Assembly: GCA_024280215.1 (NCBI GenBank)
Contig: JAJRQO010000021.1
Span: forward strand, 115,523-179,522
DNA: 64,000 nucleotides
Direction: 5' to 3'
Source: Candidatus Zixiibacteriota bacterium
GTDB taxonomy: Bacteria; Zixibacteria; MSB-5A5; GN15; FEB-12
Of this stretch, positions 2,179 to 30,503 are shown piece after piece. Every line of letters begins with the position of its first letter. Positions within the stretch are counted from its first letter, which is position 1. The position numbers were made by a program, and so were the translations under genes. Under the pieces are notes generated by a model, which had not been told where the DNA came from, searched no databases, and was given only the letters and a program-made list of their open reading frames with translations.

Positions 2179-2179
2179 T

Positions 2180-4253: not shown

Positions 4254-4254
4254 C

Positions 4255-5569: not shown

Positions 5570-5570
5570 A

Positions 5571-6737: not shown

Positions 6738-7057
6738 CTTATCCTATCACAATTATTGAAATAATGGATTTAGTTAGCTTCTATTATTTTATCGACACTC
6801 AATTACCAATTATTAGTTAATATCATAGTTACTACTAATACATATACCAATTTACCCACGTAAAAGCAAGTGATATTTTTCACAAACTTACTTTAAACCC
6901 CACCTGACAACAAATCTCTTATCGTTCACCTTATCTTATTGGATAACTGATAGTTAAGAGATTATAAGCATGGTAGGAATCAGTAATTATAGGGACATGT
7001 ATATAAAAATAATAGGAGATAGTTTTAATAAATGATTAAACGTTGAATTAAAATAAT
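6738..7057 (-). other. Upstream region of the hydrogenase operon
   Basis: This 320-base AT-rich stretch has no convincing gene. It must hold the promoter of hydB. The clearest site is the CRP-like palindrome at 6869-6884. Around 6916-6960, CTCTTA and TAAGAG could pair around a smaller TTATC/GATAA hairpin, which may be leader structure. No GG-N10-GC sigma-54 signature was found on the operon strand. Confidence 0.5.
6869..6884. promoter_or_regulatory. CRP/FNR-family palindromic operator candidate
   Basis: The sequence contains GTGA, six bases (TATTTT), TCAC, flanked by A on both sides. This is the core of the CRP consensus TGTGA-N6-TCACA. It lies about 130 bases before the hydB start, a usual distance for an activator site. 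The binding protein is not encoded in this window. Confidence 0.5.
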
Positions 7058-7093
7058 AAGCCCGTTGGCTGGGGGACATTAGCTAACGGGCTT
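7058..7093 (-). terminator. Terminator closing the 7.1-22.5 kb gene run
   Basis: The inverted repeat is AAGCCCGTTGGCT / AGCTAACGGGCTT, 13 bp with one G-T pair and a 10-nt loop. It begins 14 nt after the stop of the last gene. On the minus strand it is followed by the moderately U-rich TTATTATTTT. Confidence 0.75.
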
Positions 7094-7106
7094 TTAAAAG
7101 ATATTG

Positions 7107-9032
7107 TCAAGGACAAGCTACGGGTGGTGCTCCAGATGGAGTACCAAACATAAAACTTACCAACCCAACAATATCAGAAATATCAATTATCCCACTCCCA
7201 TCAATATCTGCTTCTTCAAAACAAGGTGGTGGGCTTCCTCCTTGAAAAGAAAATGCTACCATATAAACTAAATCAGCAATATCAACGGAACCCGCAAGGG
7301 TGCCATCATCAGATCCATAATCAACGTTACCACGAACAACAACACAACATGCAGGTTGACCTGTAGTAAATGATAAATTTAAAGTTTGATTTGTATTCAT
7401 AGTATAGTTGAGTACTTCTGTTGAATCTATATATCCAGACAAAGTATCAGTGCGGCAGAACACATTAAAGCTGCCAGATGGTATCAACACAGAATATTGA
7501 CCAAACAAGTTTGTCTTATCATGTGGAGTATATACAGTATCGCCAGTACTAACATAGGCAACACAAATTTCAGCATTAGAAACCGGTGAGCCAACATTGT
7601 CGGTTACTGTTCCAGACAAAACAAGTCCTGTGTCCAAAGTTACAAACAATGTTGTATCTTGTGTAAAAGAGACATTAAATATTTTTTGAGCCGTTAAAAA
7701 ATCCGTAGCCAATGGTTCAAACTCAACATCATAGGTACCTGTCTCAATTACAACAGTAAAAGCGCCACTCGCATCGGTATTATCACCTACAATTGGAATC
7801 TTCAATTGAGTAGCTGACACTTTCACATCAATATCAGAATTAACAACAGCTCCTCCAGCAGTTTTATCCATAACACCAGACAGAAAAATCCCATCAGCTA
7901 AGACAACATCTTGATTATAATCAGCCATTACTAAAACATTTAAAAATTGTGCAGGAGCTAACCCCGTAGGTACTTGAGGTTGATAAATTAAATTATATGT
8001 TCCGCTTGGGACAATAACTTGGTAAAATCCACTTGCATCAGTTTTATCACCTGAAGTAACTAATTTAGTACCAGTAGTAAAATCAACAATATCAATATCG
8101 ACTAATTCAATAGGATTAAATAGAGAGTTCGTGATTGTACCTGAAATTAACAAACCTGACTCAAGAGTATAATTTAAAGTAGTTGCACCTGATATTACTA
8201 CACCAAAATCATCAAGAGGTACAAAAGGATCACCTGCTTGTGGGGTAACATTAACATCATAGGTACCAAGTGGAACAACCACCGAATAAAAACCTGTACC
8301 ATCGGTATTATCACCAGGAGTAACTTGCAGAATACCAGTAGAACTGTTTGTAAAGTCTAAATCCGCATTTACAACAGGAGCACCACCTAATTGCGTAATA
8401 ATCCCAGAGACTTCATACCCCAAAGTCATAGTAACATCTATACTTGTATCACTTGCTATTAAAACATTGTTGAGTTCTATTGGTAACCACGGATCCGCAA
8501 ATAATCCTACTGGGCGGTATCGAATACGATATTCGCCTGGAGGTACTGTAATATGGTAAAACCCATTAATATCAGTATTATCTCCTGAAGTAACTAATTT
8601 ATTACCCGACACTTGTTCATACACATTTAAATCAATATCAAATATTCCTTGTCCTAAGCTATCTCTCACAAAACCTGACAGATTATATCCAGCAGCAAGC
8701 ATGACATCAAAAGTTGTGTTCCCACTTACAGAAATACCAGTAAAAGTTTCTCCAAGATGCCCTTGTACAGAAGGGACAAATTCTAAACCATAGATACCGA
8801 TAGGCAAGCCAGCAATAGAATAAAATCCTGAGGCATCCGTCACTGTCGCCGGAATCCCAATCGGCCCACCAAACTCATCAAAGAGCAAAACACTAACAGC
8901 GGATATAGGTACAAGAGCTGAATCTGTAACTGTTCCTGAGAGCGTAAACTGTGCAGAAACTGATGATGCTGTTAGAATAATGACCGCGAATAAAACTACA
9001 TAGACCTTTTTAATCAAACTAAATCTTTTCAT
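7107..9032 (-). CDS. Secreted protein: six carboxypeptidase-regulatory-like repeats plus dockerin
   Basis: This 641-residue exported protein starts with a signal peptide (to about residue 28, ending VSAQ). It continues as six repeats of about 90 residues, each opening with a [YLIF]xSGxV-type strand and containing a turn such as SGDNTDxxGFY. This is the prealbumin-like CarboxypepD_reg fold. The last 75 or so residues are a type I dockerin: GNVDYGSDDG...VDIADLVYMV and ADIDGSGIIDISDIV, two EF-hand-like calcium loops. GGAGG sits 9 nt before the ATG. It is the last gene of the long run and is followed by a terminator. Dockerins normally attach to a cohesin; which one is unknown. A surface or extracellular structural role is inferred. 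Confidence 0.85.
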   Translation of the reverse strand: MKRFSLIKKVYVVLFAVIILTASSVSAQFTLSGTVTDSALVPISAVSVLLFDEFGGPIGIPATVTDASGFYSIAGLPIGIYGLEFVPSVQGHLGETFTGISVSGNTTFDVMLAAGYNLSGFVRDSLGQGIFDIDLNVYEQVSGNKLVTSGDNTDINGFYHITVPPGEYRIRYRPVGLFADPWLPIELNNVLIASDTSIDVTMTLGYEVSGIITQLGGAPVVNADLDFTNSSTGILQVTPGDNTDGTGFYSVVVPLGTYDVNVTPQAGDPFVPLDDFGVVISGATTLNYTLESGLLISGTITNSLFNPIELVDIDIVDFTTGTKLVTSGDKTDASGFYQVIVPSGTYNLIYQPQVPTGLAPAQFLNVLVMADYNQDVVLADGIFLSGVMDKTAGGAVVNSDIDVKVSATQLKIPIVGDNTDASGAFTVVIETGTYDVEFEPLATDFLTAQKIFNVSFTQDTTLFVTLDTGLVLSGTVTDNVGSPVSNAEICVAYVSTGDTVYTPHDKTNLFGQYSVLIPSGSFNVFCRTDTLSGYIDSTEVLNYTMNTNQTLNLSFTTGQPACCVVVRGNVDYGSDDGTLAGSVDIADLVYMVAFSFQGGSPPPCFEEADIDGSGIIDISDIVGLVSFMFGTPSGAPPVACP

Positions 9033-9073
9033 TTCCCATGGACCTCCATAAAAATATACTTACGTTTCTTTTT

Positions 9074-11041
9074 CTATTTTAACAATACAATCTTACGGGA
9101 ATCACTTCCCATTGAAGTAATAATACGATAAATATAAAGACCAGTAGCAACTTTTTCACTTTGTTCATTGTTGCCGTCCCAATGGATTGCATATTCGCCT
9201 GGTGTATATATTTTGCTCGTTAACCGCTTAACTTTTTGTCCTAATATATTAAAAATATCGAGTTGTACATCAGTTCGTTGTAAAATTTCAAAATTTATAG
9301 TAGTTGTAGAATTAAACGGATTCGGAAAATTCTGTTGTAATATAAAATTATTGCCGTTTGAAGAAGTTGGTCTTGTAAATAACTTAAAAGTAAAATTACT
9401 ATCTTCCTGTACTAAGATATTCGAATACTGCCCAGTACGCAAGTTTGTTTCTTGTGGCGGATTTACTTTTATATGATACATCCCACTTGGTAAAACTGCT
9501 TCACCTTTACCGCTTATATCAGTAATAGCATAAGGAGTAAATAATTTCGAAGAAGTTACCGCATCAATTATTTCTATCTCAGAGAACTGAATTGTTTGAT
9601 CTAAATCATCAACAATTGTGAACAACGTTAAAAGACCTTCATCAAGTGTAATCTGACCAGCCGAGGAATCCACAGAAAAAGTAGTTTGTAAAAACTTTTT
9701 TGCGATATAGTGTGAACCTCGTTGCGGTAAGAATGAAATATCAAAGTTACCCTGTGGAACAAAAAAATTAAAAAAACCTAAACTGTCAGTAAAATTATTA
9801 AAAAGATTTATCTTATAATTTAAATTATAAGTAACCATAGACAGTTCTACATTACGTATACCCAACCCAAAACTATCTACAACTTGCCCTGAAAAATTAA
9901 TTCTGGGTGTTTGAAACATAACTAATTCAATAAGCGTATCCTGACTAATAGTAACATTAGGTATAAGTATTTGTTTAAAATCAGATCCCAAAGGAGGGTC
10001 AAATTTTAGATCATATAATCCTTGAGGAACTGTAACGATAGATTCACCTTCCGTATTGGTCTTATCGTTCGGAGTAAATATTTTTATACCATTATTAGGT
10101 AATTTAAAATCTACATCAGCTTTCGTAATAGGATTACCTAAGGTATCGACAATTCTAATTGTACATACGATACCCTCATCAAGAACTTCATTATAAACAG
10201 AGTCTGCAACAAAATTAAAACTATCTATTAGAACTCCTATATACCTTGAACCTCTTTTGGGAGCGAAACGTAATTGATAGAAACCAGGGTCAACAGCAAC
10301 ATTATAATTCCCTAAAGTATCGGTACTGTTGTTTGATGTAAACACTTTAGCACCCGTGATAGCATCACGCAAATCAATATCTACATCAAAAATTGGAAGA
10401 CTATTTATATCCGTTACTGTGCCCGAGAGAAGATTGGTTGGCAACATTGTTATATTAATGATTGTATCATTCGTAATAAGAACTGTATCAAGTTGTACAC
10501 CTTTAAACCTGCTATTGAGAGGTGAATCATATCGGATACGAAATAAACCTGGTGGCACCACAACTTCATAAAAACCATTTATAATAAAGGTATTATCGTT
10601 TGGAGTAAATACTCTTCCCCCATTAATAGAATCCACATCTAAATCAACTTCACCAATCGGGTTTCCAAGAAAATCAGAAACAACACCTGATATTGCAATC
10701 CCATTTTCAAGAGTCACATCAAGACGCTGACTGGTAGTTAAATCGAAATCGAAAACTTGTTTACCTAATAATCCACTACCAATACGAGGAGCAAAAGTAA
10801 CTCGATAAAATGTAGAATTTAGTACTGTAATAGAATACCATCCAGTAATATCGGTATTATCACCTAATGTTATGAGTTTCACACCAGTTTGAGAGTCGAT
10901 TAAATCTAAATCAACATTATCAACTGGGTTACCATTACTGTCACGAACGAAGCCAGAAATAGTTGACAACGCAGATGATACATCATACGAAAAAATTATA
11001 ATAACTATTAAAAATAGTATTTGTTTAATTCTGAGCAGCAT
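9074..11041 (-). CDS. Secreted repeat protein with NPFN-type C-terminal sorting domain
   Basis: This 655-residue paralogue of the next gene has a signal peptide (about residues 1-25) and six CarboxypepD_reg-like repeats (STISGFVRDSNGNP, IAISGVVSDFLGNP, NLLSGTVTD and more divergent copies). It ends in a FlgD-like sorting domain of about 85 residues (QQNFPNPFNSTTTINF ... GLYIYRI ... KIVLLK). In place of a dockerin it therefore carries the tail that FCB bacteria use for type IX-like surface delivery. It starts 9 nt after the upstream porin-like gene, so it is co-transcribed with it. I infer an outer-surface protein that acts with the glycan system; its partner is unknown. Confidence 0.84.
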   Translation of the reverse strand: MLLRIKQILFLIVIIIFSYDVSSALSTISGFVRDSNGNPVDNVDLDLIDSQTGVKLITLGDNTDITGWYSITVLNSTFYRVTFAPRIGSGLLGKQVFDFDLTTSQRLDVTLENGIAISGVVSDFLGNPIGEVDLDVDSINGGRVFTPNDNTFIINGFYEVVVPPGLFRIRYDSPLNSRFKGVQLDTVLITNDTIINITMLPTNLLSGTVTDINSLPIFDVDIDLRDAITGAKVFTSNNSTDTLGNYNVAVDPGFYQLRFAPKRGSRYIGVLIDSFNFVADSVYNEVLDEGIVCTIRIVDTLGNPITKADVDFKLPNNGIKIFTPNDKTNTEGESIVTVPQGLYDLKFDPPLGSDFKQILIPNVTISQDTLIELVMFQTPRINFSGQVVDSFGLGIRNVELSMVTYNLNYKINLFNNFTDSLGFFNFFVPQGNFDISFLPQRGSHYIAKKFLQTTFSVDSSAGQITLDEGLLTLFTIVDDLDQTIQFSEIEIIDAVTSSKLFTPYAITDISGKGEAVLPSGMYHIKVNPPQETNLRTGQYSNILVQEDSNFTFKLFTRPTSSNGNNFILQQNFPNPFNSTTTINFEILQRTDVQLDIFNILGQKVKRLTSKIYTPGEYAIHWDGNNEQSEKVATGLYIYRIITSMGSDSRKIVLLK

Positions 11042-11050
11042 AAATCTCTC

Positions 11051-12880
11051 TTAAATTATAAAACTTAAATTCAGTTTCGCATAGGTTGCAGTTTCTTGAG
11101 ATGAAGCAAAAGCTTCACCAGGTGTAAACATACTTAATACCAAAGTAGGTTCAACTATTTCAAACAGAACAGGAAAAGCTGTAATAAAATCAATGCCTGA
11201 ACCAATATCATCAGAAAAGCCATTAGGTCTGGCAGGAGGATCATTCAGGTTGCTTCCTTTAATAGTGTTATCAGGAAAGTGCTGTTTGTAGTTATGATAC
11301 ACAATATCAAAAGAAATATTACTGGTAGGATAAACTCCAAAACCTAATGTAAATATTTTTAAATTGCTTAGTTCGGGATCGAGCAAGGTTCCATAATAGT
11401 ACAAAGAACTCTGTCCATTAAATGAAGCGACATTATCCTGATACGCTGTCTGTCGAAAACGTTCATTCACTAATGGAGTCGATGGGTCATCACCAGTAGC
11501 AAAGGCATACGCTAAAGTAATCGACGGGTTGTATGTCATATCAGATTTGAAAATAGTAGCTCCAATATCAAACGCCTTTCCTTTGGTTTCGTCTCCCTTA
11601 TCTACCCCACTCATAAATGACAACTCAGCCCAAGGTTTAATATTCTCCATCTCTCCAAGATAGCGAACCCCAATCCATTTTGGTTCTCTATTTCGTATGT
11701 CAGTATCAGACCTTTTTAAATAATATGCAGACATTTGATTATCTTTTTGAAAAAACCAAGTCACCTGCCCAAACAGATCAGTCCAAGTATCAAACTTACT
11801 TTTTATCGGATTTATAGCAGTGATATATGCCGATTCAAAAATCAAATTTTCTTTTCCATAATAAAAAACTCTAACCGCGTCCATGTAATCATCAAAAAGC
11901 CATTCGCGAGGTTCATCAAAATCTTGACGACCAACTGAAACAGCAAAACCAGCATCAGCTATGTTATGCCAGAGATAATATAGTTGAGTTATATTGGCTT
12001 CAAAATCTCTTGATGGTAAACCTTGTTCACTTGATAAGACATACCGTTTACGTAAACGTACTTGTGCAAAAGCTGAATGAGAACTATTTATTATCGCGGT
12101 TAACTCAGTACGAATATCATGTTCGGAATCCTCTTGATCAGTGTTATCAAACGTAGACAGATCATATTCATTTTTACTTAACCAATTTTGTCGGTATTTT
12201 ATGACACCATTAAAATAATCATTCAACATATACCCTTTACCTAAAGAATAGACAGAATTTTTTCTCAAATGCCCAAAAAGATACTTTTCTACTTTATTCA
12301 AACTGCTGGTAGCATTATTTACATCCGTTTTGTTATTAAGAATGATAATCAATCCGGAAACTTCAATTGTATCAGGAGCATTACCATCAATAGCAACCCT
12401 TGTCACTGTACCTTTTACTTTATGATTCTTCTTCACATCACGAATTTTAATTTTTGTAGCTTTCCAGCTTCCATCTTTGCGAATACGACATGTTACCTGA
12501 ACAAGTTGTTTCTTTTTTAAATTTGCTATTGTATTCTTGCTCGTACCATCACTAATAAATTTAGTTTTAGAAGTTATATCAATTTTTTTTCCAAAGAGAG
12601 TAATTGTTTCTTCTTCTAAATCAATTGATTCAATTTGTCCTCGTAATTTTGGTTTACGAGGTTTTGGTAGTGCCTCAATTTCCAAAGCTATAAAAGATAA
12701 GGATTCTTTAAAGTATCCTTCTACCTCATACGCTTTGCCAACTTCGATGTTAAGCGAAATATATTCTGGTTCCTTGGCATCTATCTCATGAATACACAAT
12801 AAAAGTGCTATCATTAAAATTAGATACGCTCTTAATGTAATCTTTTTATGATTTCCCATTCTTTTACTTATTCCTTTCAT
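11051..12880 (-). CDS. AlgE-like outer-membrane beta-barrel with N-terminal DUF5666-like domains
   Basis: This 609-residue protein has a signal peptide (MKGISKRMGNHKK..., hydrophobic LILMIALLLC, cut near IDAKEP). Then come two short OB-like modules (RGQIESIDLEEETITLFGK and VKGTVTRVAIDGN), which resemble DUF5666. The rest is a long barrel of alternating strands with VSVGRQDFDEPREW, WIGVRYLGE and a terminal aromatic-rich strand ending LNLSFII. The middle resembles the alginate export (PF13372) family. The start is taken at 12880, where GAAGGAAGCA precedes ATG and 23 nt separate it from the upstream gene. A longer reading from 12958 would overlap that gene by 55 nt. A role as the outer-membrane exit of the operon's product is inferred. 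Confidence 0.75.
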   Translation of the reverse strand: MKGISKRMGNHKKITLRAYLILMIALLLCIHEIDAKEPEYISLNIEVGKAYEVEGYFKESLSFIALEIEALPKPRKPKLRGQIESIDLEEETITLFGKKIDITSKTKFISDGTSKNTIANLKKKQLVQVTCRIRKDGSWKATKIKIRDVKKNHKVKGTVTRVAIDGNAPDTIEVSGLIIILNNKTDVNNATSSLNKVEKYLFGHLRKNSVYSLGKGYMLNDYFNGVIKYRQNWLSKNEYDLSTFDNTDQEDSEHDIRTELTAIINSSHSAFAQVRLRKRYVLSSEQGLPSRDFEANITQLYYLWHNIADAGFAVSVGRQDFDEPREWLFDDYMDAVRVFYYGKENLIFESAYITAINPIKSKFDTWTDLFGQVTWFFQKDNQMSAYYLKRSDTDIRNREPKWIGVRYLGEMENIKPWAELSFMSGVDKGDETKGKAFDIGATIFKSDMTYNPSITLAYAFATGDDPSTPLVNERFRQTAYQDNVASFNGQSSLYYYGTLLDPELSNLKIFTLGFGVYPTSNISFDIVYHNYKQHFPDNTIKGSNLNDPPARPNGFSDDIGSGIDFITAFPVLFEIVEPTLVLSMFTPGEAFASSQETATYAKLNLSFII

Positions 12881-12903
12881 TGCTTCCTTCTGTCCCCACA
12901 CTA

Positions 12904-14196
12904 TTAGCTTAAACAGCTTATAGATTTTCTTAATAAATGTACAGTTAACTTTTTCCATCTCGGTCTAAAGAGGTAAATAGTTGCTATTCTCAAAAGTGAA
13001 GCCGATTCCCACCATATAGCTCTCTCAAGAAATTGGTCATTGCCATCATAAGTATCTTGAAATAATTTCACACCTTCAAGAATCTCCTTTGTGTTCTCGG
13101 GTGTTTGGTAGAGTCGAAGATACAAGTGTGCAATAAAATTGCCAAAATCTAATGCTGGATCGCCAGCAGACAGATTATCAAAATCAACAATTGTCGTTCG
13201 ATTCTTAGAATAAAGAACCTGCTTATCATAAAAATCTCTATGAATACATTTTAAATTTGTAACTTGATTAAGTTTTGTACTTGCAGTTTCTAATATTTCA
13301 AGAGCTTCTGTAAACAACTTTGTTTCATTTGGATAAACAGACTGAACAATCGCAATTTGTTTAGATAAATTTCTTAATTCATGTAAAACTGAAAACTCAC
13401 TGAGTCCATCTGTTGGTACTGTATGAACTTTTTTGATTATATTAGCAGCTTGTTGGCAACCGATGCCAAAAGAACTTTGACTAATAAGTTCATGAAGAGT
13501 TGTTCCTTGAACTTTTTCCATAAGTAATGAACCTTGCTTCTCATCATACCCATAAATCTTTGGAATTGAGAATGATTCGTTAACAGATGAACCTAATCCA
13601 TATTTTTCAAGAAGTCTTGACTTATCAAACAAATCTTTACTTTTATTCTTCTTAACTAATTTTATTATAAAGCTGTTCTTTTTCTGTCCACAAACGCTAA
13701 TTTTATCTTTAGTGAATAATTCTAAGACAGCTCTCCGTTCAAGTCTATAACCTAATACATTAAATTTTATTATATCAAAATTGTTACCTTGAACATCGTT
13801 CTGCAATAAATGTCGAATATTAAACGGTTCATTTTGTTCCGAACAAATTTCTGTAAGAATCTTCAATTTGGGATCATATGGAAAAGATAATACAACTAAA
13901 TTATATTCATCAATTGAAAAATAATAATCAGTATCTAACTTACTTTTATATTTTTCAAAATCATCTTTTACATGAAAGAGTTTACCATAATAAATTGTAT
14001 AATTTTTCGAATCATCAAAATATACATGGTACTGCAACACTAACGCTTTGTTTCGATAGTATAGCCTTGTCATATACACTTTGTCAACATGAACAGTCTT
14101 TTCTAACCCCTTCCTAAAAACAGAAGTGACTAAATCAGAGTCAGTAACAAAATCATAATAATTAAATTCCATATGTAGTTTTGTTTTTGAGAACAT
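12904..14196 (-). CDS. Aminoglycoside-phosphotransferase-fold kinase, copy 3 of 3
   Basis: This 430-residue member of the APH/choline-kinase superfamily is the third of three tandem relatives. Catalytic motifs near the C-terminus read CIHRDFYDKQVLY and TIVDFDNLSAGDPALDFGNF. The Brenner motif HxDxxxxN has Gln at the last position and Arg in place of Gly. The DFD metal site is intact. Two N-lobe-like stretches (VYMTRLYYRNKALVLQY and IIKFNVLGYRLERRAVLEL) suggest a doubled N-lobe. The ATG at 14196 overlaps the previous gene by 35 nt; an in-frame ATG at 14172 with 11-nt overlap is equally possible. The substrate is unknown. Operon context suggests a sugar or glycolipid. Confidence 0.72.
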   Translation of the reverse strand: MFSKTKLHMEFNYYDFVTDSDLVTSVFRKGLEKTVHVDKVYMTRLYYRNKALVLQYHVYFDDSKNYTIYYGKLFHVKDDFEKYKSKLDTDYYFSIDEYNLVVLSFPYDPKLKILTEICSEQNEPFNIRHLLQNDVQGNNFDIIKFNVLGYRLERRAVLELFTKDKISVCGQKKNSFIIKLVKKNKSKDLFDKSRLLEKYGLGSSVNESFSIPKIYGYDEKQGSLLMEKVQGTTLHELISQSSFGIGCQQAANIIKKVHTVPTDGLSEFSVLHELRNLSKQIAIVQSVYPNETKLFTEALEILETASTKLNQVTNLKCIHRDFYDKQVLYSKNRTTIVDFDNLSAGDPALDFGNFIAHLYLRLYQTPENTKEILEGVKLFQDTYDGNDQFLERAIWWESASLLRIATIYLFRPRWKKLTVHLLRKSISCLS

Positions 14197-15544
14197 CTAA
14201 AACAACTTTCAATATTTTTTGAATTTTCTTTTCCCATTTATTTTCAAACAATCGAAATGGCTTAATTGATAATGACAACAATGAGAAACCAACACAGTAA
14301 TTTAATTTTGTATGGTTAATTTTAAAAACTGTATTATTACTATATGAATCTATAAACTCTATTATAAATAATTTCGCATCAAACTCAATAGCAAATATCT
14401 CTTTATACAACAAATGAGCGATATAATTCCCTATATCTACATGAAAATCTCCAAAAGTAAATCGGTCAAAATCGAGTATTTTCATCTTGTTTCCCTGAAA
14501 CAATAGCTGTTCGTAAGAAAAATCACCATGGATAAGTACTTCATTATTCGCTTTTTTATTTACTGAAATAGTAGTAAATTCCTTTTCGACTTCATCTATC
14601 AATTTTTTATTTTCGGGAAGAATACTCTTTAGTGACTCGATTGTAGCTGATAAATTGTATTCAGAATTATTTACTGCTTTGAGTGTGTCTCTATTGATTG
14701 ACAATTTATGAATATTTGAAATCAACGATGCTGCCATCATATTAATTTTATGAAATTTTTCACTTTCAATAATTGAACATACATCATCGGCTTGGGCATC
14801 TTTATAAATCATAAACTGCTTTTCAATATCATAACAAATTGGAACGATTACATTAGGAATATCATTTGAAATAGTATTGAGTAATTCAAAAATAGATTTT
14901 CCTTTTCGTGAAACATCACACTTAATAAAATAATTAATAACTTCTTTTGTTCCCGACTTAATATGTGTTCTCAATGTTGTTACTTTGAGCAAAATTCTTT
15001 TTTCAGGTTTGTATCTTAAAATTTCATATTTCATATTCTTATGAGAAATTCTATATTCATTATTATTTAATAGAGAATCATGACGATAAAGTATTCTTCT
15101 TAATTTACGAGAATCTAAAATTGAATCGAGAGATTTTATTTCAGAGTCTCCATAAAAAGGATAAAATATTATTTTTGCAGAATCAAAACAGATAGAAACA
15201 GAATCTTGCTTTCTCACACTCAGATGTAGTCCAAGTGATTTGTTTTTGGCAAGATCATAATTCTCTATAGTATATGCTTTCGCATAAAAATAACTCGTAG
15301 AATTTTCGTTTGATATTTTATGCTGTAGAACAACTTTATAAGTCACAATACAACTTGTATCAGGTTTATATCTGACATAAGAAATCTGATATGATACAAG
15401 AGAATAATTTGAGCTACGAAAAAACTGCTCTAACGCGTCTTGAACAAACTGATTAGTAAAAAGTATATTTAATCCGCTAATTTTATCATCAACGGGTAAT
15501 TTACTTACAGAATTATCTTTTATGTTATTTTTTGTCATATTCAT
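14162..15544 (-). CDS. Aminoglycoside-phosphotransferase-fold kinase, copy 2 of 3
   Basis: This 460-residue APH-fold protein has VLIHGDFSYEQLLFQ and MKILDFDRFTFGDFHVDIGNYIAHL as its catalytic and metal-binding motifs. The usual Asn of HGDxxxxN is again Gln. The N-terminal third contains two RYKP-type segments, YVRYKPDTSCIVTYKV and ILRYKPEKRILLKV. Each resembles the first strands of a kinase N-lobe. No membrane segment or signal peptide is seen, so it is cytosolic. It begins 2 nt after the upstream copy and overlaps the downstream one, so the three are translated together. It is probably a small-molecule or glycan kinase; substrate and activity are not known. Confidence 0.74.
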   Translation of the reverse strand: MNMTKNNIKDNSVSKLPVDDKISGLNILFTNQFVQDALEQFFRSSNYSLVSYQISYVRYKPDTSCIVTYKVVLQHKISNENSTSYFYAKAYTIENYDLAKNKSLGLHLSVRKQDSVSICFDSAKIIFYPFYGDSEIKSLDSILDSRKLRRILYRHDSLLNNNEYRISHKNMKYEILRYKPEKRILLKVTTLRTHIKSGTKEVINYFIKCDVSRKGKSIFELLNTISNDIPNVIVPICYDIEKQFMIYKDAQADDVCSIIESEKFHKINMMAASLISNIHKLSINRDTLKAVNNSEYNLSATIESLKSILPENKKLIDEVEKEFTTISVNKKANNEVLIHGDFSYEQLLFQGNKMKILDFDRFTFGDFHVDIGNYIAHLLYKEIFAIEFDAKLFIIEFIDSYSNNTVFKINHTKLNYCVGFSLLSLSIKPFRLFENKWEKKIQKILKVVLDVLKNKTTYGI

Positions 15545-15546
15545 AA

Positions 15547-16803
15547 TTATTTTAGAACAATCAAACTTTCATCAAGTAGCTGCATTACTTTTACAAACCA
15601 GTTCTTCCTTAGCCTTCGTAATTCTTTTACTGTCAATTCAACCAAAGCACATCCAGTATAAAATTTTAATTCATTGTTATCAATTTCAATATTAGTTTTG
15701 TTCTTATAAGAGAGTAAAAATGATTCAAATATTTTTTCTGATGATTCGACCAATGACTTAAATTCCAATTTTTTTAATTGAGCATAAAAATTTCCTAAAT
15801 CAGCAATTGGTGATCCGATAGCAATACTATCCAAATCAATTATCCAGTTTTTTGATTCCCCAATTAATACTTGTCCTTGATGAAAATCACCATGTATAAC
15901 AACATTGTCTGCATTTTTTAGATTTTGTAGTTTCAACATAAGTGCTATTCTTATTTTATTTATTTTCTTTTGTATTTCAACATTGCCATAAGTAATAATT
16001 TTTGATGACCTTTCAAATTGATTCACAAATGATAATGGAGCTTTATTTTCAAGGTCACAAATTTTCAATGAGTGAAATTCTGATATAGTATTAGCGAAAA
16101 CAGATAAATCAGCATTATTAATATTGTGAAGCTTATCAGCAAAAGAGATAGCATCAACTTTTTCTTGGATAAGAAGTGAATCTTCTTGAGAGAAATGAAG
16201 TACCTGAGGAACAAATAATGTCTTATGTCCTTTTAATGCTTCAACTACCTTCATGGTTTTCTTGTAAGAATTTTGCACTTTATCAGGTAATTCAATACGT
16301 GCGATTACATTTTTAAAAGATTGTGATTTATACGAAAGTAATTTATATGTGGCTACAAATCTTGTCTCAGGCTTATATCTAATTGTTTCATACGAGTCAT
16401 TTTGAACATCCTGAAGAAGTGGTGATAATTTAAGTTTTCCATCAGCGGGGAACTTACAAATAAGAATATTTGATTCATCAATTAAGACAAAATTTTCACA
16501 AGAACTTTTCCCAACAAATTCTTGCTTTACTTTTAAATAAATATCATCATTCATACACCTAATATAGTATGTATCGCATTCATTTTTATTCCCAGACTTC
16601 ACTCTAAGACTGAGTTGGCAACTTTTTTTAGGGCTATAACGAATATGTTCTATTTTAACTTCAGTATATTCTTTCATAATAGAATTTGAAAAGCTTGAAT
16701 TCAAGAGAGTTAAAATTTCTTGGGAATCAATTAGTTTTGCCAAAGGAAGATTTTTATCCTCTGGCAACATACGATTCTTTTTTGTCATTAGTTTTGTTTT
16801 CAA
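15547..16803 (-). CDS. Aminoglycoside-phosphotransferase-fold kinase, copy 1 of 3
   Basis: This 418-residue APH-fold protein is the first of the tandem trio. Motifs are VVIHGDFHQGQVLIG (Gln in place of the canonical Asn) and WIIDLDSIAIGSPIADLGNF. Two RY(S/K)P segments, HIRYSPKKSCQLSLRV and TIRYKPETRFVATYKL, again imply a repeated N-lobe. The start is TTG at 16803, preceded by AGGTG at suitable distance. The in-frame ATG at 16788 has no ribosome site. It lies 11 nt after the ABC exporter gene. The kinase fold is clear, but phosphotransfer and substrate are inference. Confidence 0.74.
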   Translation of the reverse strand: MKTKLMTKKNRMLPEDKNLPLAKLIDSQEILTLLNSSFSNSIMKEYTEVKIEHIRYSPKKSCQLSLRVKSGNKNECDTYYIRCMNDDIYLKVKQEFVGKSSCENFVLIDESNILICKFPADGKLKLSPLLQDVQNDSYETIRYKPETRFVATYKLLSYKSQSFKNVIARIELPDKVQNSYKKTMKVVEALKGHKTLFVPQVLHFSQEDSLLIQEKVDAISFADKLHNINNADLSVFANTISEFHSLKICDLENKAPLSFVNQFERSSKIITYGNVEIQKKINKIRIALMLKLQNLKNADNVVIHGDFHQGQVLIGESKNWIIDLDSIAIGSPIADLGNFYAQLKKLEFKSLVESSEKIFESFLLSYKNKTNIEIDNNELKFYTGCALVELTVKELRRLRKNWFVKVMQLLDESLIVLK

Positions 16804-16814
16804 ATTTTCACCTA

Positions 16815-18656
16815 CTATTTCAACAGAGAAAAATGTTCTTTTAACATTCTCTCGTCTATTGAAAAGAATTTTTTAAACTCACCATTTTTTTCAAATAATT
16901 CTTGTGGCGTCCCTTGTTCAACCATTCTACCATCATTTATAAATATAACCCAATCAGCCAATGATAAGAAATTAATTCTATGAGTTATAATAAGCATCGT
17001 TCGATTTTGTTTTAATTGAGCTAAAATATTTTTTGAATCTTTTTCAGCATGCACATCAAGCCCTGTTGCAGGCTCATCAAATATCATAACTGGTGAATTT
17101 CGCATAGCAGCTCTTGCAAATGATATCTTTTGTCGCTGACCTCCAGATAAAGTCAATCCTCCTTCGCCAACCATAGTCTCATACCCATTCCCTAATTCCA
17201 TAATAAACTCATGAGCTCCAGCCAACTTTGCCGCTTCTACGATCTGTTCTTGAGAGGCACTATTTTTACTAAATGCAATATTTTCAGCAATACTTGTTCT
17301 AAATAAAAACGTCTCTTGCGCAAGAGGCGTTATACGTTTTCGTAAGCTTCTAACTTTATACTCATCAATATTTTTATCGTCGATAATAATTTCACCGTCA
17401 GACGGTTTATATAATCGTAAAATTAACTTTGCTATTGTCGATTTACCTGCCCCAGTCGGTCCAAAAATTATTGTCGTCTTATTTTGAGGTATCGTACATG
17501 AAAAATCTTTTAATATTTTCTGTTCTGAATTATAGCTAAAGTTAATAGACTTAAACTGAATATCACCTTTTATTTCTTTGGCAGAGAGTCCATCAGTTTT
17601 TTCCAATATTTCAGGTTCCATTTCAAGTAACTCAATTGTCTTCTCGCCACGAACAGTAGCTTTTGCAATTTTAGATGATAGCTGTGCGACAGTTTTTAAC
17701 GGACGATAAATTCCTCTGAGATATGACAAAAATATCAACAAGTCACCAGGGGTAATTTCATTCGCCAGTGCTTTATTTGTGCCAACCCATAGCACTGCGC
17801 ACATACCTACTGCCGTTATAATATCAACAATTCGAGCATAGTTTGCGGTTAGCTTAGCGGTTTTCACATTCGCGGTAACATCTTTGTCAATTGAACGTCC
17901 GATTAAGCGTTCTCTTCGTTTCTCTTGTGAGTATGTTTTCACCTGTGAAATACCAGCAAAAGTTTCTTGTACGGATGCAACGATTTTCCCATACATGAGT
18001 CTCTGTTTGCGAGCTGAATCTTTGATTTGAAATGAAAACTTAATCGCAGCTAAGGCAAAAAATGGAAGAGCTGCCAACGCAATAGCGGCAAGTTGCCAAT
18101 CGAGCCAAAACATAATTCCAAACATACAGACAATAAGAATAATCTGGCTGGCTAAATTAATAACCATTGATATAAGTAAATCCTGCAATAAACTTATATC
18201 ACTGGTCATCCGAGTCATCAGCTCACCTGTTTCTCGATAATCATGATATGACAATGGTAATCTTTGTACATGAGAAAATAATTGCATGCGAATGTTGGCT
18301 ACAAGATTGTGACCTATAATTTTGGAATAGACACCATACGTATACGTAAGAAGTCCTCTTAAAACAGCAATGAGTAAAATACCAAATGCGGCTATAAACA
18401 ATACCTCCATCGGTTCTAAATTATTTAGAAACGACAAAGCTGAATCAGCTGTTGCATCAATATCTTTAATAAGAATAAAATCAAAAACAATTTTAAGTGG
18501 CCATGGTCGTAAGAGAGACAATAGCGTTACACCGAGCAGAGACATAGAACCAACAAAAAGACGCATCTTATGTTTTTTAAGATGCCCGCCAAAATGTTGA
18601 AAAATTCTTCGGAGCGATTTAAATTTAATTTTGGGTAAATTATATTTTATTCGCAT
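16815..18656 (-). CDS. MsbA-like ABC exporter (fused membrane and ATPase domains)
   Basis: This 613-residue half-transporter forms an inner-membrane homodimer that flips or exports a substrate. An N-terminal six-helix type I exporter domain (about 30-330) is followed by a complete ATPase. The ATPase has Walker A GPTGAGKST, Q-loop TPLAQETFLF, signature LSGGQRQKISFARA, Walker B VMIFDEPA and H-loop ITHR. All catalytic residues are present. The ATG overlaps the upstream glycosyltransferase gene by 17 nt. With three glycosyltransferases before it and three kinases after it, a glycolipid or oligosaccharide-lipid is the likely cargo, as with MsbA or PglK. The actual substrate is unknown. Confidence 0.88.
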   Translation of the reverse strand: MRIKYNLPKIKFKSLRRIFQHFGGHLKKHKMRLFVGSMSLLGVTLLSLLRPWPLKIVFDFILIKDIDATADSALSFLNNLEPMEVLFIAAFGILLIAVLRGLLTYTYGVYSKIIGHNLVANIRMQLFSHVQRLPLSYHDYRETGELMTRMTSDISLLQDLLISMVINLASQIILIVCMFGIMFWLDWQLAAIALAALPFFALAAIKFSFQIKDSARKQRLMYGKIVASVQETFAGISQVKTYSQEKRRERLIGRSIDKDVTANVKTAKLTANYARIVDIITAVGMCAVLWVGTNKALANEITPGDLLIFLSYLRGIYRPLKTVAQLSSKIAKATVRGEKTIELLEMEPEILEKTDGLSAKEIKGDIQFKSINFSYNSEQKILKDFSCTIPQNKTTIIFGPTGAGKSTIAKLILRLYKPSDGEIIIDDKNIDEYKVRSLRKRITPLAQETFLFRTSIAENIAFSKNSASQEQIVEAAKLAGAHEFIMELGNGYETMVGEGGLTLSGGQRQKISFARAAMRNSPVMIFDEPATGLDVHAEKDSKNILAQLKQNRTMLIITHRINFLSLADWVIFINDGRMVEQGTPQELFEKNGEFKKFFSIDERMLKEHFSLLK

Positions 18657-19905
18657 GTTCTTCTTTCAGCTCATTTGCTACTTTTATTTTTGCAATTGAA
18701 AATATCTTTTCAACATCGCCTAAGCGTGACTCCCAGGAATGCTTCGTCTTAGCATCTTCTAAAGCTTGTGAACTAATTTTTTTTCGTAAACTCACATCAT
18801 TTTTCAAACGAACAATTGCTTCACCTAATTCTTCTTTGCTACCCGCATCGACCAAAAGAGCATTTTTCTCATTAACAAGTAAATCAGAAATTTGACCTAT
18901 TGCTGATGCAACTATCGGTTTTCCTGCGGCCAAATATTCAAATACTTTCAATGGTGAAAAATAAAAATTATCTAACTTTGGATATGGAGCAGTAACAATA
19001 TCAAGTTTTGCTATATGTGAAGGAATTGTATTATGCTCTACGGCACCTACAAACTCAACTTTATCAATAAGATCAAGAGCTTCGCATTGGTTTTGAAGTT
19101 GCTCTATATAATCTTTCTGTCCACCTCCGACCAATCGAAGTCTTAACGATTCATCAACCTGATGTATCGCAGCAAAAGCATCAATCAGAATATCTACACC
19201 ATGCCAAGGCTTAATAGAGCCTACAAAGCCAATAACAAATTCATCAACAGCATCAGAAGATTTTTTGAGGGTGCGATTATTATCATAATTATCAAGTGAT
19301 ACACCATTTGGAACAGTGGTCACCGCTGTCTTTGGAGCAATATTCAATACATATTCTTTTAATTTATCCGATACTGTTATAACATGATCAGCAGTCGTAA
19401 ATAAAAATTTCTCAACCGACTTCGCCAACGCTAATTGATTGAGTTGTCTAAATTCCGATGCTTCAAGCACCAAGGGTGCATTTACTTCAAGAATAAATGG
19501 AATCTTAAAATTTTTCGCAAAAACTAATCCAGCAGTTGAAAAAATAGAATAACGTTCATACAAAAGTTCAAATTCGTGATTTTGATAAATAGTAGATATC
19601 ATCTGCCCTATTGCTTCATTACGATAATAGTCCGAGGCTTCTTTCATTGTATGTTTATCTTCATTTTGCTTATCTGAACCATTCATGAATTCTATATTAG
19701 CAAAGCCTGGGAGTTGATAGACAGGATACTCATGGTTCTCTGGATTCTCCAACGCAAGCCTTGATGCTGCAATAATTGGTTCATACCCTTTGAGAACTAA
19801 AGTTTTTAAAAACTCCCTAATATGAATAGAAGCACCTTTAGTGCCTCCATATGGAATACCTCTATCAGAGGACAAGTAGAGAACTTTACCTTTTGTATTT
19901 GCCAT
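18640..19905 (-). CDS. Glycosyltransferase family 4 protein
   Basis: This GT-B glycosyltransferase of about 421 residues transfers a sugar from a nucleotide donor on the cytosolic side of the membrane. The N-terminal domain has YLSSDRGIPYGGTKGASIHI. The C-terminal donor domain has VPNGVSLDNYD, FVGSIKPWHGVDILIDAF and FEYLAAGKPIVAS, with the acid/EX-type region intact. A reading from TTG at 19923 would overlap the upstream gene. The ATG at 19905, just 4 nt after that gene's stop, is preferred. Donor and acceptor cannot be told from sequence. It is the third of three consecutive glycosyltransferases. Confidence 0.85.
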   Translation of the reverse strand: MANTKGKVLYLSSDRGIPYGGTKGASIHIREFLKTLVLKGYEPIIAASRLALENPENHEYPVYQLPGFANIEFMNGSDKQNEDKHTMKEASDYYRNEAIGQMISTIYQNHEFELLYERYSIFSTAGLVFAKNFKIPFILEVNAPLVLEASEFRQLNQLALAKSVEKFLFTTADHVITVSDKLKEYVLNIAPKTAVTTVPNGVSLDNYDNNRTLKKSSDAVDEFVIGFVGSIKPWHGVDILIDAFAAIHQVDESLRLRLVGGGQKDYIEQLQNQCEALDLIDKVEFVGAVEHNTIPSHIAKLDIVTAPYPKLDNFYFSPLKVFEYLAAGKPIVASAIGQISDLLVNEKNALLVDAGSKEELGEAIVRLKNDVSLRKKISSQALEDAKTKHSWESRLGDVEKIFSIAKIKVANELKEEHANKI

Positions 19906-19909
19906 CTTT

Positions 19910-21166
19910 TTAATTTGCCTCAATAGTTTTCAATTTTTTTGGAGCGGCAATATTTTTTAAATCATCTATATACATTTCGTATAATTTTCCCGCATTATTT
20001 TTAAGTGAAAAATTGTTTTCAGCAAAGACTCTTCCTTTTTTGGCATATTCTTCACGAAGCTCTTCAGACAAGAGCAACCTCTCAAGCATTTCAGCAAGTT
20101 GAACAGGTTTTTTTTCTTCGACTAATAATCCGTTATGCTCATGTTTAATAATTTCTGGAATTCCGGAAATCCTTGTAGATATCGATGGAAGCCCAACCGC
20201 TAATGCTTCAAGTAAAACTGTTGGTAGAGCATCAATATTATTATCTTTCGCAATAATACAAGGTAGACAAAACAGAGTCGCTTCATTCATTAACGATATA
20301 ACTTCATCAGATGTTTTAGCTCCTATAAATTGTACATCATCCTGAAGCTGCAATTCCTCCTGAAGTGCCAACAAGTCTTCCTGTTCAGGTCCAGACCCGG
20401 CAATGACACATTCAAAATCTATTTTCTTTTCTTTTAAGATTTTTAAGGCTTTAAGAAGATCATCAAAGCCTTTCTTCTCAACCAGCCTACCCACTCCTAA
20501 AATAGTTTTTGTTTTCCTTTTAGAAACCGGTACTGGTTGTAATGAATTCAAATTTACACCATTGTATAAAACTTTAATTCTATCCATATTTATTTCAGGA
20601 GCTTGTTCAAATAGATAATTTTTATTAAAATTAGTTACGGTAACTATAAAAGATGCATACTGAAGTTTTTCGCGTAAATAGTGTTCATCCATATCATACA
20701 CAAAAATATCTTTTGCATGAGCAGTAAAACTAAAAGGGATTCCACAAATACGATGCGACAAATACGCGATAGTACTCGGGAGTGAAGCAAAGTGAGCGTG
20801 TAGTCTCTCGATTCCTAAACTTTCTACTTTCGAAGTTATCCATGCTGACCGCCAAATATTTTCTATTCTACTGGTATCTTTTGTGCGTAAAGCTTCGTTG
20901 ATTAAGTTCCAAATATTGCTATTATATTTTTCTAAACAATCCCACTCATTTGAAATCCATCCTGACCATTTTTTTACATCAAAGTCTTCTAAATAATGAA
21001 TATGTGCTTTTAACTCGCCTATCTGTGGATGAAACTTTCCTTCATTTGGTTTTTTAAGTGAGAAAATTGTAACTTCTGCACCTTGTCTCTCCAGTTCTAA
21101 AATTTCATTTAAAATAAAAGTTTCAGAAATCCGTGGGAACATTTTAACTACATATCCGATTTTCAT
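19910..21166 (-). CDS. Glycosyltransferase family 4 protein (colanic-acid WcaL-like)
   Basis: This 418-residue GT-B enzyme begins MKIGYVVKMFPRISETFILNE, the typical start of WcaL/AmsK-like glycosyltransferases of exopolysaccharide clusters. It carries LHAHFASLPSTIAYL, VLYNGVNLNSL, GVGRLVEKKGFDDLLKAL and LLEALAVGLPSISTRISGIPEII. The last contains the usual donor-binding Glu pattern. It is cytosolic and probably membrane-associated. It lies 36 nt after the COG4671-like gene. Its similarity to colanic-acid-type enzymes supports a polysaccharide or glycolipid product for the operon. Confidence 0.86.
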   Translation of the reverse strand: MKIGYVVKMFPRISETFILNEILELERQGAEVTIFSLKKPNEGKFHPQIGELKAHIHYLEDFDVKKWSGWISNEWDCLEKYNSNIWNLINEALRTKDTSRIENIWRSAWITSKVESLGIERLHAHFASLPSTIAYLSHRICGIPFSFTAHAKDIFVYDMDEHYLREKLQYASFIVTVTNFNKNYLFEQAPEINMDRIKVLYNGVNLNSLQPVPVSKRKTKTILGVGRLVEKKGFDDLLKALKILKEKKIDFECVIAGSGPEQEDLLALQEELQLQDDVQFIGAKTSDEVISLMNEATLFCLPCIIAKDNNIDALPTVLLEALAVGLPSISTRISGIPEIIKHEHNGLLVEEKKPVQLAEMLERLLLSEELREEYAKKGRVFAENNFSLKNNAGKLYEMYIDDLKNIAAPKKLKTIEAN

Positions 21167-21202
21167 TTTAAAATTTCCTTCAGTAAAGAAGTTACGAGTT
21201 AT

Positions 21203-22510
21203 TTATTTGTTGATAAATAATTCACCACAAAAGCGAGCAAGGTTATTTGTACCGTTTAGTTCAATACTATTTTGTGCTCTCGCATTTGTTAAAGGTTGTT
21301 GTGGATTTTTAAGTTGAGAAAATATTTTTTCTGACAACGACTGAGCTGAGACATCATCAGGATGAAGCATCTCAACCAGATTTAATTCATTTAAACATGT
21401 TGCCCGAATTAGTTGCTCTTTTCGATGCATCACTCTTGGAATCAATAAAGCACGTTTTGCACATCCAAGTAATTCCGTAACTGTGTTATAACCAGCAGTG
21501 CTAACCACTAAATCACTCTTCTTAAAGTATAATTCGGCATTTTTCACAAAACTTTTAATTGAAACAGGTAGCCCAACAGCTTCTTTTTTAAACCGCTTCA
21601 CAAGATGTTCCTCTAAAAAGGACCCCATTAGAATAACAGTATCAAAATTTATTTCATTTTTATATTCCCGAAGCATTTGCAAATAATTGCCAATAATAAT
21701 CTCTCCGGCACCATCACCACCACCGATAGTAACGGTTACCAGAGAGTTATTGCCAGAGTACCTTGGAGGTATTTTACTCGGCAATTTTTTTACAATGTAA
21801 TTACAATAAAAAGTTTTTTTCAGTAAATGTTTCGGAAAATTATAATTCTTTGCTGTCTGATAGACGTTTGGAGAACCATAGACCATAACAAAATCATATA
21901 ACTCATCCAACACTTCGTAAATCCCGTCTTTATTCCAAAGCTCACACACATTTTTGGGTGAGTCAATAATATCACGAAGACCTAAAATTTTTACACAATC
22001 TGAACCAGATTTTTTAAGCCATTCAAGTGATGGTTGCATTTCTGATTTCATTCCAAGAGGAGAATGGTCAACTAAAAGTAGATGCGGATTATAGTCCTGT
22101 ATCGTCTGAAGTAAAATATTTGTTCTGATAGTTAAAATACGTCGATAGGTTGTCCCAAGCGTTCGTGCTTCATATGCTTCAGGACCAACTTTTCGTACGG
22201 CTGGTAATTTCACATAGTCTACACCATCAGGGATTTTAAAACGGTCGACAACAGGAGAACCAGTCACCAACAATATCGAAAGCTTCGGATAATTTTCAAT
22301 CAAGGCATTGGCAATTTTTAAACATCTCTGTAAATGTCCTAAGCCAAAAGTATCATGCGAATAAATCATCACCCGCTGACCATAACCAGAAACTTGCTCT
22401 CTCAATTGCTCCAAGCTCATATTGCTATTAGCAAAATCCAATACATTTGTATTCTTAGATTCATCTTTTCTGAACTGATTAGGAATGGCAATTGTATCTA
22501 TTTTATTCAT
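21203..22510 (-). CDS. COG4671-type predicted glycosyltransferase, first gene of the long run
   Basis: This 435-residue GT-B-fold protein begins its domain with VMIYSHDTFGLGHLQRC, the signature of the uncharacterised COG4671 glycosyltransferases. A MurG-like C-terminal half follows: VTVTIGGGDGAG, SDLVVSTAGYNTVTELLGCAKRALLIPR and KEQLIRA. The roughly 45-residue N-terminal extension (MNKIDTIAIPNQFRKD...) is low in complexity. The ATG is preceded only by a weak GAGA, with about 36 nt of leader after the predicted sigma-54 start site. Donor and acceptor are unknown. Confidence 0.82.
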   Translation of the reverse strand: MNKIDTIAIPNQFRKDESKNTNVLDFANSNMSLEQLREQVSGYGQRVMIYSHDTFGLGHLQRCLKIANALIENYPKLSILLVTGSPVVDRFKIPDGVDYVKLPAVRKVGPEAYEARTLGTTYRRILTIRTNILLQTIQDYNPHLLLVDHSPLGMKSEMQPSLEWLKKSGSDCVKILGLRDIIDSPKNVCELWNKDGIYEVLDELYDFVMVYGSPNVYQTAKNYNFPKHLLKKTFYCNYIVKKLPSKIPPRYSGNNSLVTVTIGGGDGAGEIIIGNYLQMLREYKNEINFDTVILMGSFLEEHLVKRFKKEAVGLPVSIKSFVKNAELYFKKSDLVVSTAGYNTVTELLGCAKRALLIPRVMHRKEQLIRATCLNELNLVEMLHPDDVSAQSLSEKIFSQLKNPQQPLTNARAQNSIELNGTNNLARFCGELFINK

Positions 22511-22555
22511 TAATTCTCATAGTTTTAGAAAACTCATTTTCTCTGAGTTACATTG

Positions 22556-22573
22556 AAGCAAATTCGAAGCCAA
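22556..22573 (-). promoter_or_regulatory. Sigma-54 (-24/-12) promoter
   Basis: On the minus strand the sequence reads TTGGC, CTT-like spacer and TTGCT. GG (22571-22570) and GC (22559-22558) are exactly 10 nt apart, and TTGC and TGGC are both complete. It matches 14 of 17 positions of the YTGGCACGRNNNTTGCW consensus, with all invariant bases kept. The predicted start site is near 22546, about 36 nt before the first gene. Confidence 0.72.
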
Positions 22574-22657
22574 ACAGCCCAATATTCTGTATCATATTAC
22601 GGCGTATAAAGTTATAAAATTACTACATAGACATAACTGGTCGACAATACAGGGATG

Positions 22658-22677
22658 ATTGGTTCATATAAACCAAT
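22658..22677. promoter_or_regulatory. Palindrome: candidate activator (enhancer) site
   Basis: ATTGGTT, a 6-nt spacer and AACCAAT form a perfect 7-bp inverted repeat. It lies about 110 bases upstream of the predicted sigma-54 start, the normal distance for an NtrC-family enhancer. It is also 9 nt after the regulator's stop, so a weak terminator is the alternative, but no U tract follows. Confidence 0.42.
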
Positions 22678-22685
22678 TGGGTGAT

Positions 22686-29170: not shown

Positions 29171-29198
29171 TTGACTTACCATATAAGTGTTATATATT
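29171..29198 (+). promoter_or_regulatory. Promoter of the metal-regulator/ZIP operon
   Basis: TTGACT (29171-29176), 16 nt and TATATT (29193-29198) stand between the two palindromic operators. The downstream operator covers the expected start of transcription. Confidence 0.7.
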
Positions 29199-29205
29199 CA
29201 AATAA

Positions 29206-29221: not shown

Positions 29222-29234
29222 ATATGGAGATATG

Positions 29235-30502: not shown

Positions 30503-30503
30503 C

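Follow-up and report, generated by a model that had tools for sequence, protein, structure and literature searches.

What is made by a run of ten genes that places glycosyltransferases, an ABC exporter and kinases beside an outer membrane barrel, and by which route does the product leave the cell? The question is raised by a block on the minus strand of contig JAJRQO010000021.1 (assembly GCA_024280215.1) from a Candidatus Zixiibacteriota bacterium, where a stretch of 64,000 nucleotides (positions 115,523 to 179,522; hereafter the window, to which all positions refer unless a locus is named) was analyzed as a whole. At a probability of roughly 60%, the block makes an acidic, likely uronate-containing glycan, phosphorylates it by one A-type and one B-type kinase with the fold of aminoglycoside phosphotransferases (APH), and exports it via an MsbA-like exporter and an AlgE-like barrel. 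Gene content, gene order, their conservation, two kinase types with catalytic residues, the fold of the barrel and a dyad accompanied by a sigma-54 site are established at the level of sequence or model, and glycan synthesis and export is the best reading of the block.

The ten open reading frames (ORFs) lie head to tail between 7107 and 22510, and their nine junctions consist of gaps of 36, 11, 2, 9 and 41 nt and overlaps of 14, 17, 35 and 55 nt. The true overlap at the barrel gene is probably smaller than 55 nt because a signal-like hydrophobic stretch starts well past the first ATG of this frame. The run ends at a predicted intrinsic terminator (7058-7093, minus strand) with a 9-bp stem and an 18-nt loop, in which the hairpin AAGCCCGTT/AACGGGCTT is followed by the T-rich tail ATTATTTT; a general terminator scan passed over this hairpin, as its loop limit was 8 nt. 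The next gene lies 369 nt beyond the last ORF. An earlier reading of the sequence (the original prediction) had described both this terminator and a closely spaced same-strand run, which is indeed found from 21203-22510 to 7107-9032 with gaps of 2-41 nt or overlaps; its count of eleven genes was one too high, and its own list also totals ten. At the other end, 175 nt separate the first gene from that of an NtrC-type response regulator (22686-24092, minus strand; sigma-54 activation domain with GAFTGA, Fis-type helix-turn-helix), and a further 39 nt lie between the regulator and a membrane histidine kinase (24132-25571, minus strand; HAMP, HisKA and HATPase domains in Pfam). This co-conserved pair directly upstream and the epimerase gene before it (26288-27166) were absent from the original prediction.

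Domains were assigned by running Pfam and NCBIfam profiles on the block proteins of the window, and the gene types originally named (glycosyltransferases, MsbA-like exporter, APH-fold kinases and AlgE-like barrel) were matched. The first gene codes for a GT28-type glycosyltransferase (21203-22510, minus strand; Glyco_tran_28_C, E 8e-14); its GT28 domain is confirmed by Pfam, and the number COG4671 given to it earlier is a label with no analysis behind it. Two GT4 glycosyltransferases follow on the same strand, GT4a at 19910-21166 (Glycos_transf_1, E 8e-42; EpsE/WcaL-like, under the NCBIfam cut-offs) and GT4b at 18640-19923 (Glyco_trans_1_4, E 9e-27). The exporter gene (16815-18656, minus strand) encodes an MsbA/PglK-type ABC protein that carries transmembrane and nucleotide-binding domains in one chain (ABC_membrane, ABC_tran) and scores 377 bits on the NCBIfam model MsbA_lipidA, the cut-off of which is 602 bits. 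Three kinases, the barrel and two secreted repeat proteins complete the block.

Kinase 1 (15547-16803; loop HGDFHQGQ, A-type; E 4.6e-9), kinase 2 (14162-15544; HGDFSYEQ, A-type; E 3.2e-6) and kinase 3 (12904-14196; HRDFYDKQ, B-type; E 4e-9), all on the minus strand, exceed the cut-off of the Pfam family APH (PF01636) and keep the catalytic HxD loop and the loop with the metal-binding D. An AlphaFold model, computed for kinase 2 only, shows a kinase fold with a mean pLDDT of 88.9 and a pTM of 0.89. In a motif scan that left out the broken kinases of genome G002, the DxD pattern was absent in 4 of 37 kinase entries, where DLE, DTD, DTD and DFE were found by eye. A trio of kinases beside one exporter and one barrel had been singled out as the peculiarity of the locus. 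The co-occurrence with kinases holds; the trio is not part of the core, as only five of the 15 countable loci have three kinases and ten have two (in one of these ten as a 937-aa fusion), and it was dropped as a defining trait. By sequence, the conserved core is a pair of types, HGD...Q (A-type) and HRDFY-like..Q (B-type), and kinase 1 is an extra copy in some genera. Double kinases of 750-800 aa account for nine of 43 homologues of kinase 2.

A role in antibiotic resistance was rejected as improbable, in view of NCBIfam scores far below the cut-offs of the named APH families and of the gene context. The best NCBIfam scores of kinase 1 were 16.8 bits for GlcN_kinase and 16.1 bits for TreS_Cterm, against cut-offs of 550 and 375 bits, respectively. 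A likeness to maltokinases and glucosamine kinases extends, as far as the available parts of PMC4306142 and PMC6520443 describe these enzymes, to the common APH-like fold, the HGD loop, the DFD/DFE loop, an extra N-terminal domain and, for glucosamine kinase, a magnesium-binding glutamine within the catalytic loop. The identity over the structural alignment is only 11-12%, however, and the kinases of the block differ in forming an A-type and B-type pair inside a glycan locus.

The barrel gene (11051-12958, minus strand; Pfam Alginate_exp) encodes a DUF5666 domain followed by an outer membrane barrel, and its true start probably lies past the first ATG. The predicted structure is the 18-strand fold of AlgE. 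In families f7 and f19, the DUF5666 part is also present as a second, separate gene ahead of the barrel gene; such extra genes were located at L071 7788-8567, L072 8046-8681, L073 7837-8412, L074 7843-8556 and L075 12116-12718.

In a set of 41 related genomes, the barrel, kinase 2 and the GT28 enzyme, used as queries in turn, each returned the same eight, with one further weak match of GT28 in G025, and a genome search of the congener G001 (88% complete) found none of the three. Across the phylum, 17 of 132 genomes, from 12 of 85 genera, carry the barrel gene. Their loci, in which the barrel is present by construction since it was the query, were all compared with their surroundings and share the order histidine kinase, NtrC-type regulator, UDP-sugar dehydrogenase (in part of the loci), GT28, GT4, GT4, MsbA-like ABC exporter, two to three APH-fold kinases, AlgE-like barrel and repeat proteins. 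In 12 loci (G000, G003, G010, G026, G029, G069, G116, G114, G049, G048, G129 and G127), the genes from GT28 to the barrel lie on one contig in this order. The loci of G002, G032, G035, G117 and G130 are broken by contig ends, and their visible parts agree with it. A gene order confined to this strain would, according to the original prediction, have spoken against it; the order is in fact kept in all 17 barrel genomes, as far as the contigs reach.

The genes around this core are conserved to different degrees. Wherever the contig is long enough (13 loci), an orthologue of the regulator stands ahead of the block, and an orthologue of the histidine kinase is found upstream of the regulator in the relatives. 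A UDP-glucose/GDP-mannose dehydrogenase lies between the regulator and GT28 in 12 loci (in G117 and G130 this position is out of sight), and its nearest solved structures are UDP-glucose dehydrogenases. Further upstream, the window encodes an SDR-type sugar-nucleotide epimerase/dehydratase (26288-27166, minus strand; GalE/TviC/LegB-like; Pfam Epimerase, E 4e-54), the true start of which is perhaps upstream. A homologue stands beside the histidine kinase in 10 of the 12 relatives examined, in eight of them directly upstream on the same strand and in two on the opposite strand; none was found in this place in G116 and G114. Between epimerase and histidine kinase lies the gene of an S-adenosylmethionine-dependent methyltransferase (25587-26270, minus strand; Methyltransf_23, E 1.5e-11), which recurs in 3 of 12 relatives (G003, G002 and G069, at L077 1300-1854, L111 9368-10057 and L110 1597-2430), and the glycan may be methylated in the genus of the window and in G069. 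In a tree of the exporter, covering 13 of the 17 loci, the sequences cluster by family, and the groups f1 and f16 are moderately supported; a GT28 tree was built without G002. The exporter tree, taken without a species tree, would fit an old and mostly vertical descent with losses.

Relatives of the block also exist outside the phylum, as shorter sets on plasmids of E. coli and of Rhodobacterales. A plasmid search with the double kinase P0012, the source of which is named Erwinia endophytica, yielded 15 records, ten of them from Escherichia. On the Escherichia coli plasmid pCFSAN004179G, the order is glycosyl transferase family 28, GT4, GT4, ABC transporter, APH, phosphotransferase, alginate export family protein and nucleotide sugar dehydrogenase, and each protein of the plasmid block has its own counterpart as best match in the query set. 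Since this cluster was reached through a kinase query, its barrel was found independently of the barrel search. The E. coli cluster is present in 18 of 5,426 complete genomes, is plasmid-borne in all of them and is at least 99% identical. Paracoccus aestuarii and Pseudorhodobacter turbinis carry GT28-GT4-GT4-ABC-double kinase, and plasmids of Candidatus Manganitrophus (L089, L096) contain a larger, fragmented version with many split frames, to which genes for an alginate lyase family protein, a radical SAM protein and a histidine phosphatase are added. A further likeness is offered by the rhizobial genes redA-redB of Rhizobium etli pA (L091 9950-13596) and Sinorhizobium meliloti pSymB (L090 9977-13629), homologues of GT28 and GT4a that adjoin each other with a sugar dehydrogenase nearby; kinase and barrel homologues, however, were not detected in the stretches compared, and similarity in the local ABC protein is weak. 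The two genes are annotated merely as membrane-anchored protein and glycosyltransferase. Their surroundings include UDP-glucose dehydrogenase and adenylate cyclase and, in Sinorhizobium, also a polysaccharide lyase.

How does this set of genes compare with the known routes of polysaccharide export? In the available part of PMC9601211, three assembly routes are distinguished for secreted polysaccharides, and the outer membrane outlet has as its partners either OPX proteins or the combination of a synthase and a TPR protein. The ABC transporter-dependent route described there combines chain assembly by cytosolic glycosyltransferases with an ABC transporter that moves the chain, as is proposed for the block; the exporter of the block, however, is an MsbA-like single chain accompanied by paired APH-fold kinases, and no domain of the PCP/OPX partners occurs in the block proteins, to which the search for PCP was confined. 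The AlgE-type barrel of 16-18 strands that belongs to the synthase-dependent alginate pathway is present in the block. Unlike the Pseudomonas alginate system, which uses AlgE, the block has an ABC exporter and kinases in place of synthase and TPR protein, and a membrane-embedded processive synthase and a TPR scaffold were absent among the block proteins, the only ones scanned for them. The same holds, within the same scope, for a Wzx flippase, a Wzy polymerase and an initiating phosphoglycosyltransferase. The closest parallel for the outlet is the composite OPX/beta-barrel translocon EpsX/EpsY of Myxococcus xanthus (PMC9601211, available part), in which an 18-strand AlgE-like barrel also serves outside the synthase pathway. 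EpsX, however, belongs to a Wzx/Wzy pathway and has a short periplasmic OPX protein as its partner, whereas the block barrel carries a DUF5666 domain and adjoins an ABC exporter and kinases, and a gene for such an OPX protein, which in the composite type is coupled to that of the barrel, was not found in the block. Judged by its sequence, the block fits none of the pathways as defined in the part of PMC9601211 at hand (ABC-dependent, synthase-dependent, Wzx/Wzy and composite). No description of it was found in the literature searched (open-licence papers, mostly by title and abstract), and it is possibly an unnamed export class. What sets it apart is the combination of an AlgE-type outlet, an MsbA-type exporter and a conserved kinase pair, a core that extends from an uncultured phylum to plasmids of E. 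coli.

Control of the block by sigma-54 is supported by sequence comparison. A -24/-12 promoter site, TTGGCTTCGAATTTGCT, is predicted at 22557-22573 (minus strand), and the dyad TTGGTTTATATGAACCAA at 22659-22676, a perfect match to TTGGTT-N6-AACCAA, is the predicted enhancer site of the regulator. TTGGCTTCGAATTTGCT is the sole exact match to TTGGC-N6-TTTGCW in the 64 kb; with one mismatch, five matches stand against 3.06 expected, a number reached by 17 of 100 shuffles. The site appears weak alone and strong through comparison across relatives. Of the five perfect dyads in the genome, only that of the window is followed by a strong sigma-54 site, at a distance of 103 nt (score 22 of 25, compared with 18 for the best of the others). 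Among 12 loci scored, ten have dyad and sigma-54 site in the gap after the regulator gene at a spacing of 93-112 nt, and at most 3 of 200 dinucleotide shuffles equalled their joint score (0, 1 or 3, depending on the locus), counts that are somewhat generous because the spacing window of 90-115 nt was set after the sigma-54-only scores were known. This scoring left out the contig-cut loci of G032, G035, G117 and G130 as well as G069, which was scored later under the same fixed rule; there, the best place in an 8.3-kb stretch is the regulator-dehydrogenase gap with a spacing of 102, a score with no shuffles behind it. The pair is found in 11 of 13 loci overall, and the sigma-54 site scored alone stands out in 8 of 12 (shuffle fraction ≤0.027). 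With this conservation, rpoN in the genome and a GAFTGA regulator adjoining, the sigma-54 promoter of the original prediction is supported. A two-component system whose dyad and sigma-54 promoter keep an almost constant distance would also offer a regulatory handle on the system. Sigma-70-like sites number 101 on both strands of 6000-24000 (81.5 expected, sd 9.0), which has no bearing on internal promoters. In a comparative study (PMC3162934), sigma-54 is said to be tied to the control of the bacterial exterior.

From these elements, the following course can be proposed. The membrane sensor kinase would phosphorylate the NtrC-type regulator, which would bind the dyad about 100 nt upstream and open the sigma-54 promoter. 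A UDP-sugar dehydrogenase, encoded in the block in most relatives and represented by family members elsewhere in the genome of the window, would supply UDP-glucuronate, which the epimerase may convert. On a lipid carrier, GT28 would begin a chain that the two GT4 enzymes would lengthen. The kinases would then phosphorylate sugars within it, whether to give the chain charge or to cap its end as a licence for export. Flipping of the finished chain would be the task of the ABC exporter, for which we infer chain transport, and passage across the outer membrane that of the barrel, whose DUF5666 domain would occupy the position that OPX or TPR partners have in other pathways. In Zixibacteria, the protein component of the surface layer would come from the two repeat proteins encoded in the block. 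The structure of the glycan, the size of the polymer, its carrier, the kinase substrates and the roles of DUF5666 and of the repeat proteins are all given here as the scheme would have them. In ABC transporter-dependent export, the components of which are known as Wzm and Wzt, E. coli O9a provides a precedent: the kinase domain of WbdD caps the chain before export, and the idea of a kinase acting as an export licence is modelled on it. A bolder version, plausible rather than probable, holds that the block represents an unnamed class of polysaccharide secretion in at least three phyla (Zixibacteria, Pseudomonadota including the E. coli plasmids, and Nitrospirota), in which the APH-fold kinase pair phosphorylates a uronate-containing chain and thereby licenses its hand-over from MsbA-like exporter to AlgE-like barrel without OPX, polymerase or synthase. 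If the proposed course is right, many genes annotated as aminoglycoside phosphotransferases would be glycan kinases, and a phosphate-dependent export signal would be testable in cultured bacteria such as Paracoccus.

Several observations weigh against phosphorylation and export of a uronate polymer by the block. The dehydrogenase is absent from the block in the genus of the window (G000, G002 and G003). The block yielded neither an initiating phosphoglycosyltransferase nor a polymerase or a periplasmic bridge, and the tails of its secreted proteins recur throughout the genome, so that the earlier statement that it covers every step from cytosol to surface was too strong. Open frames of 368, 791 and 447 aa encode OPX domains at three other places of the genome, the nearest of which is on the same contig at a distance of about 41 kb; one of them could be a partner in trans. 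In the stretches examined, the Paracoccus and Pseudorhodobacter loci showed no barrel homologue. Stops or frame breaks interrupt block genes (barrel, regulator, repeat protein 1, kinase 3, GT28) in G003, G002 and G029, either by assembly error or by decay; they lie at L010 3646-7460 and 17269-18675, L011 9424-12576 and L014 14880-16217. With regard to regulation, allowing one mismatch in the dyad reveals little enrichment (32 genome places, 26 for the reversed control), the dyad/sigma-54 pair is absent in G029 (124/200 shuffles) and non-significant in G026 (52/200), and the sigma-54 site alone is at chance level in G026, G029, G049 and G048 (shuffle fractions 0.42, 0.32, 0.69 and 0.42), so that in the latter two the dyad carries the joint score. 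Finally, the solved folds nearest to the kinase 2 model belong to enzymes that act on small molecules (methylthioribose, choline, glucosamine), which makes free sugars possible substrates.

The last point leads to a different order of events, which we regard as rather unlikely: the kinases would act before assembly and phosphorylate free sugars for nucleotide-sugar synthesis, and the exported glycan would carry no phosphate. Such a sugar-1-phosphate route would need a nucleotidyltransferase, whereas in the loci read the dehydrogenase is the only gene added to the series that leads from regulator to barrel, and two kinase types that are kept as a pair beside the exporter, and as fusions in several lineages, are a better fit to joint action on one substrate. 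The scarcity of assembly enzymes can also be turned into an argument for a glycolipid or a short lipid-linked oligosaccharide of the envelope, with no secreted polymer. The exporter, flipping its substrate as MsbA or PglK do, and the presence of three glycosyltransferases only, with no polymerase found in the block, would suit this alternative, in which the barrel is otherwise employed; we consider it quite unlikely, as a barrel of the AlgE type, a known outlet for uronate polymers, is present in all 17 phylum loci (there by construction) and, independently, in the E. coli version.

The two repeat proteins at the end of the block are secreted proteins of modular build. REP1 (9074-11041, minus strand) consists of CarboxypepD_reg/Big_1 modules and ends in a type A sorting tail of the type IX secretion system (T9SS), which scores 41.7 bits on NCBIfam TIGR04183 (cut-off 23); f19 loci lack this protein. 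REP2 (7107-9032, minus strand) carries CarboxypepD_reg modules and a dockerin-like tail. A sorting tail on one protein and a dockerin on the other had been proposed, and the former stands, whereas Pfam did not recognize a dockerin in REP2. The genome has 48 matches to the sorting-tail family and 54 to the REP2 tail, its own copy included; because of these numbers, both tails are general signals in this genome, and they were ruled out as display parts specific to the block. Protein glycosylation, with a flipped oligosaccharide attached to REP1 and REP2, might be read from the PglK-type match of the exporter and from the place of these two genes in Zixibacteria, but it is very improbable, given that the block proteins of the window include no oligosaccharyltransferase domain and that repeat proteins are missing from the annotated surroundings of the E. 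coli version. The genome also encodes an SprA_N domain, part of the T9SS translocon, in a 2049-aa frame, and among its many candidates for T9SS cargo is a 976-aa subtilase with a sorting tail at 31750-34680.

Two further loci of the window lie outside these subjects. At 29187-31595, a gene for a DtxR-like metal repressor is directly followed by those for a ZIP transporter and for a protein of 363 aa that matched no Pfam family. On the minus strand at 1711-6737, genes for a NiFe hydrogenase large subunit, an NAD-binding flavoprotein, a 4Fe-4S protein and one that, judged by sequence, is cyclic-nucleotide-binding-like form a cluster that looks like a soluble NAD(P)-linked hydrogenase.

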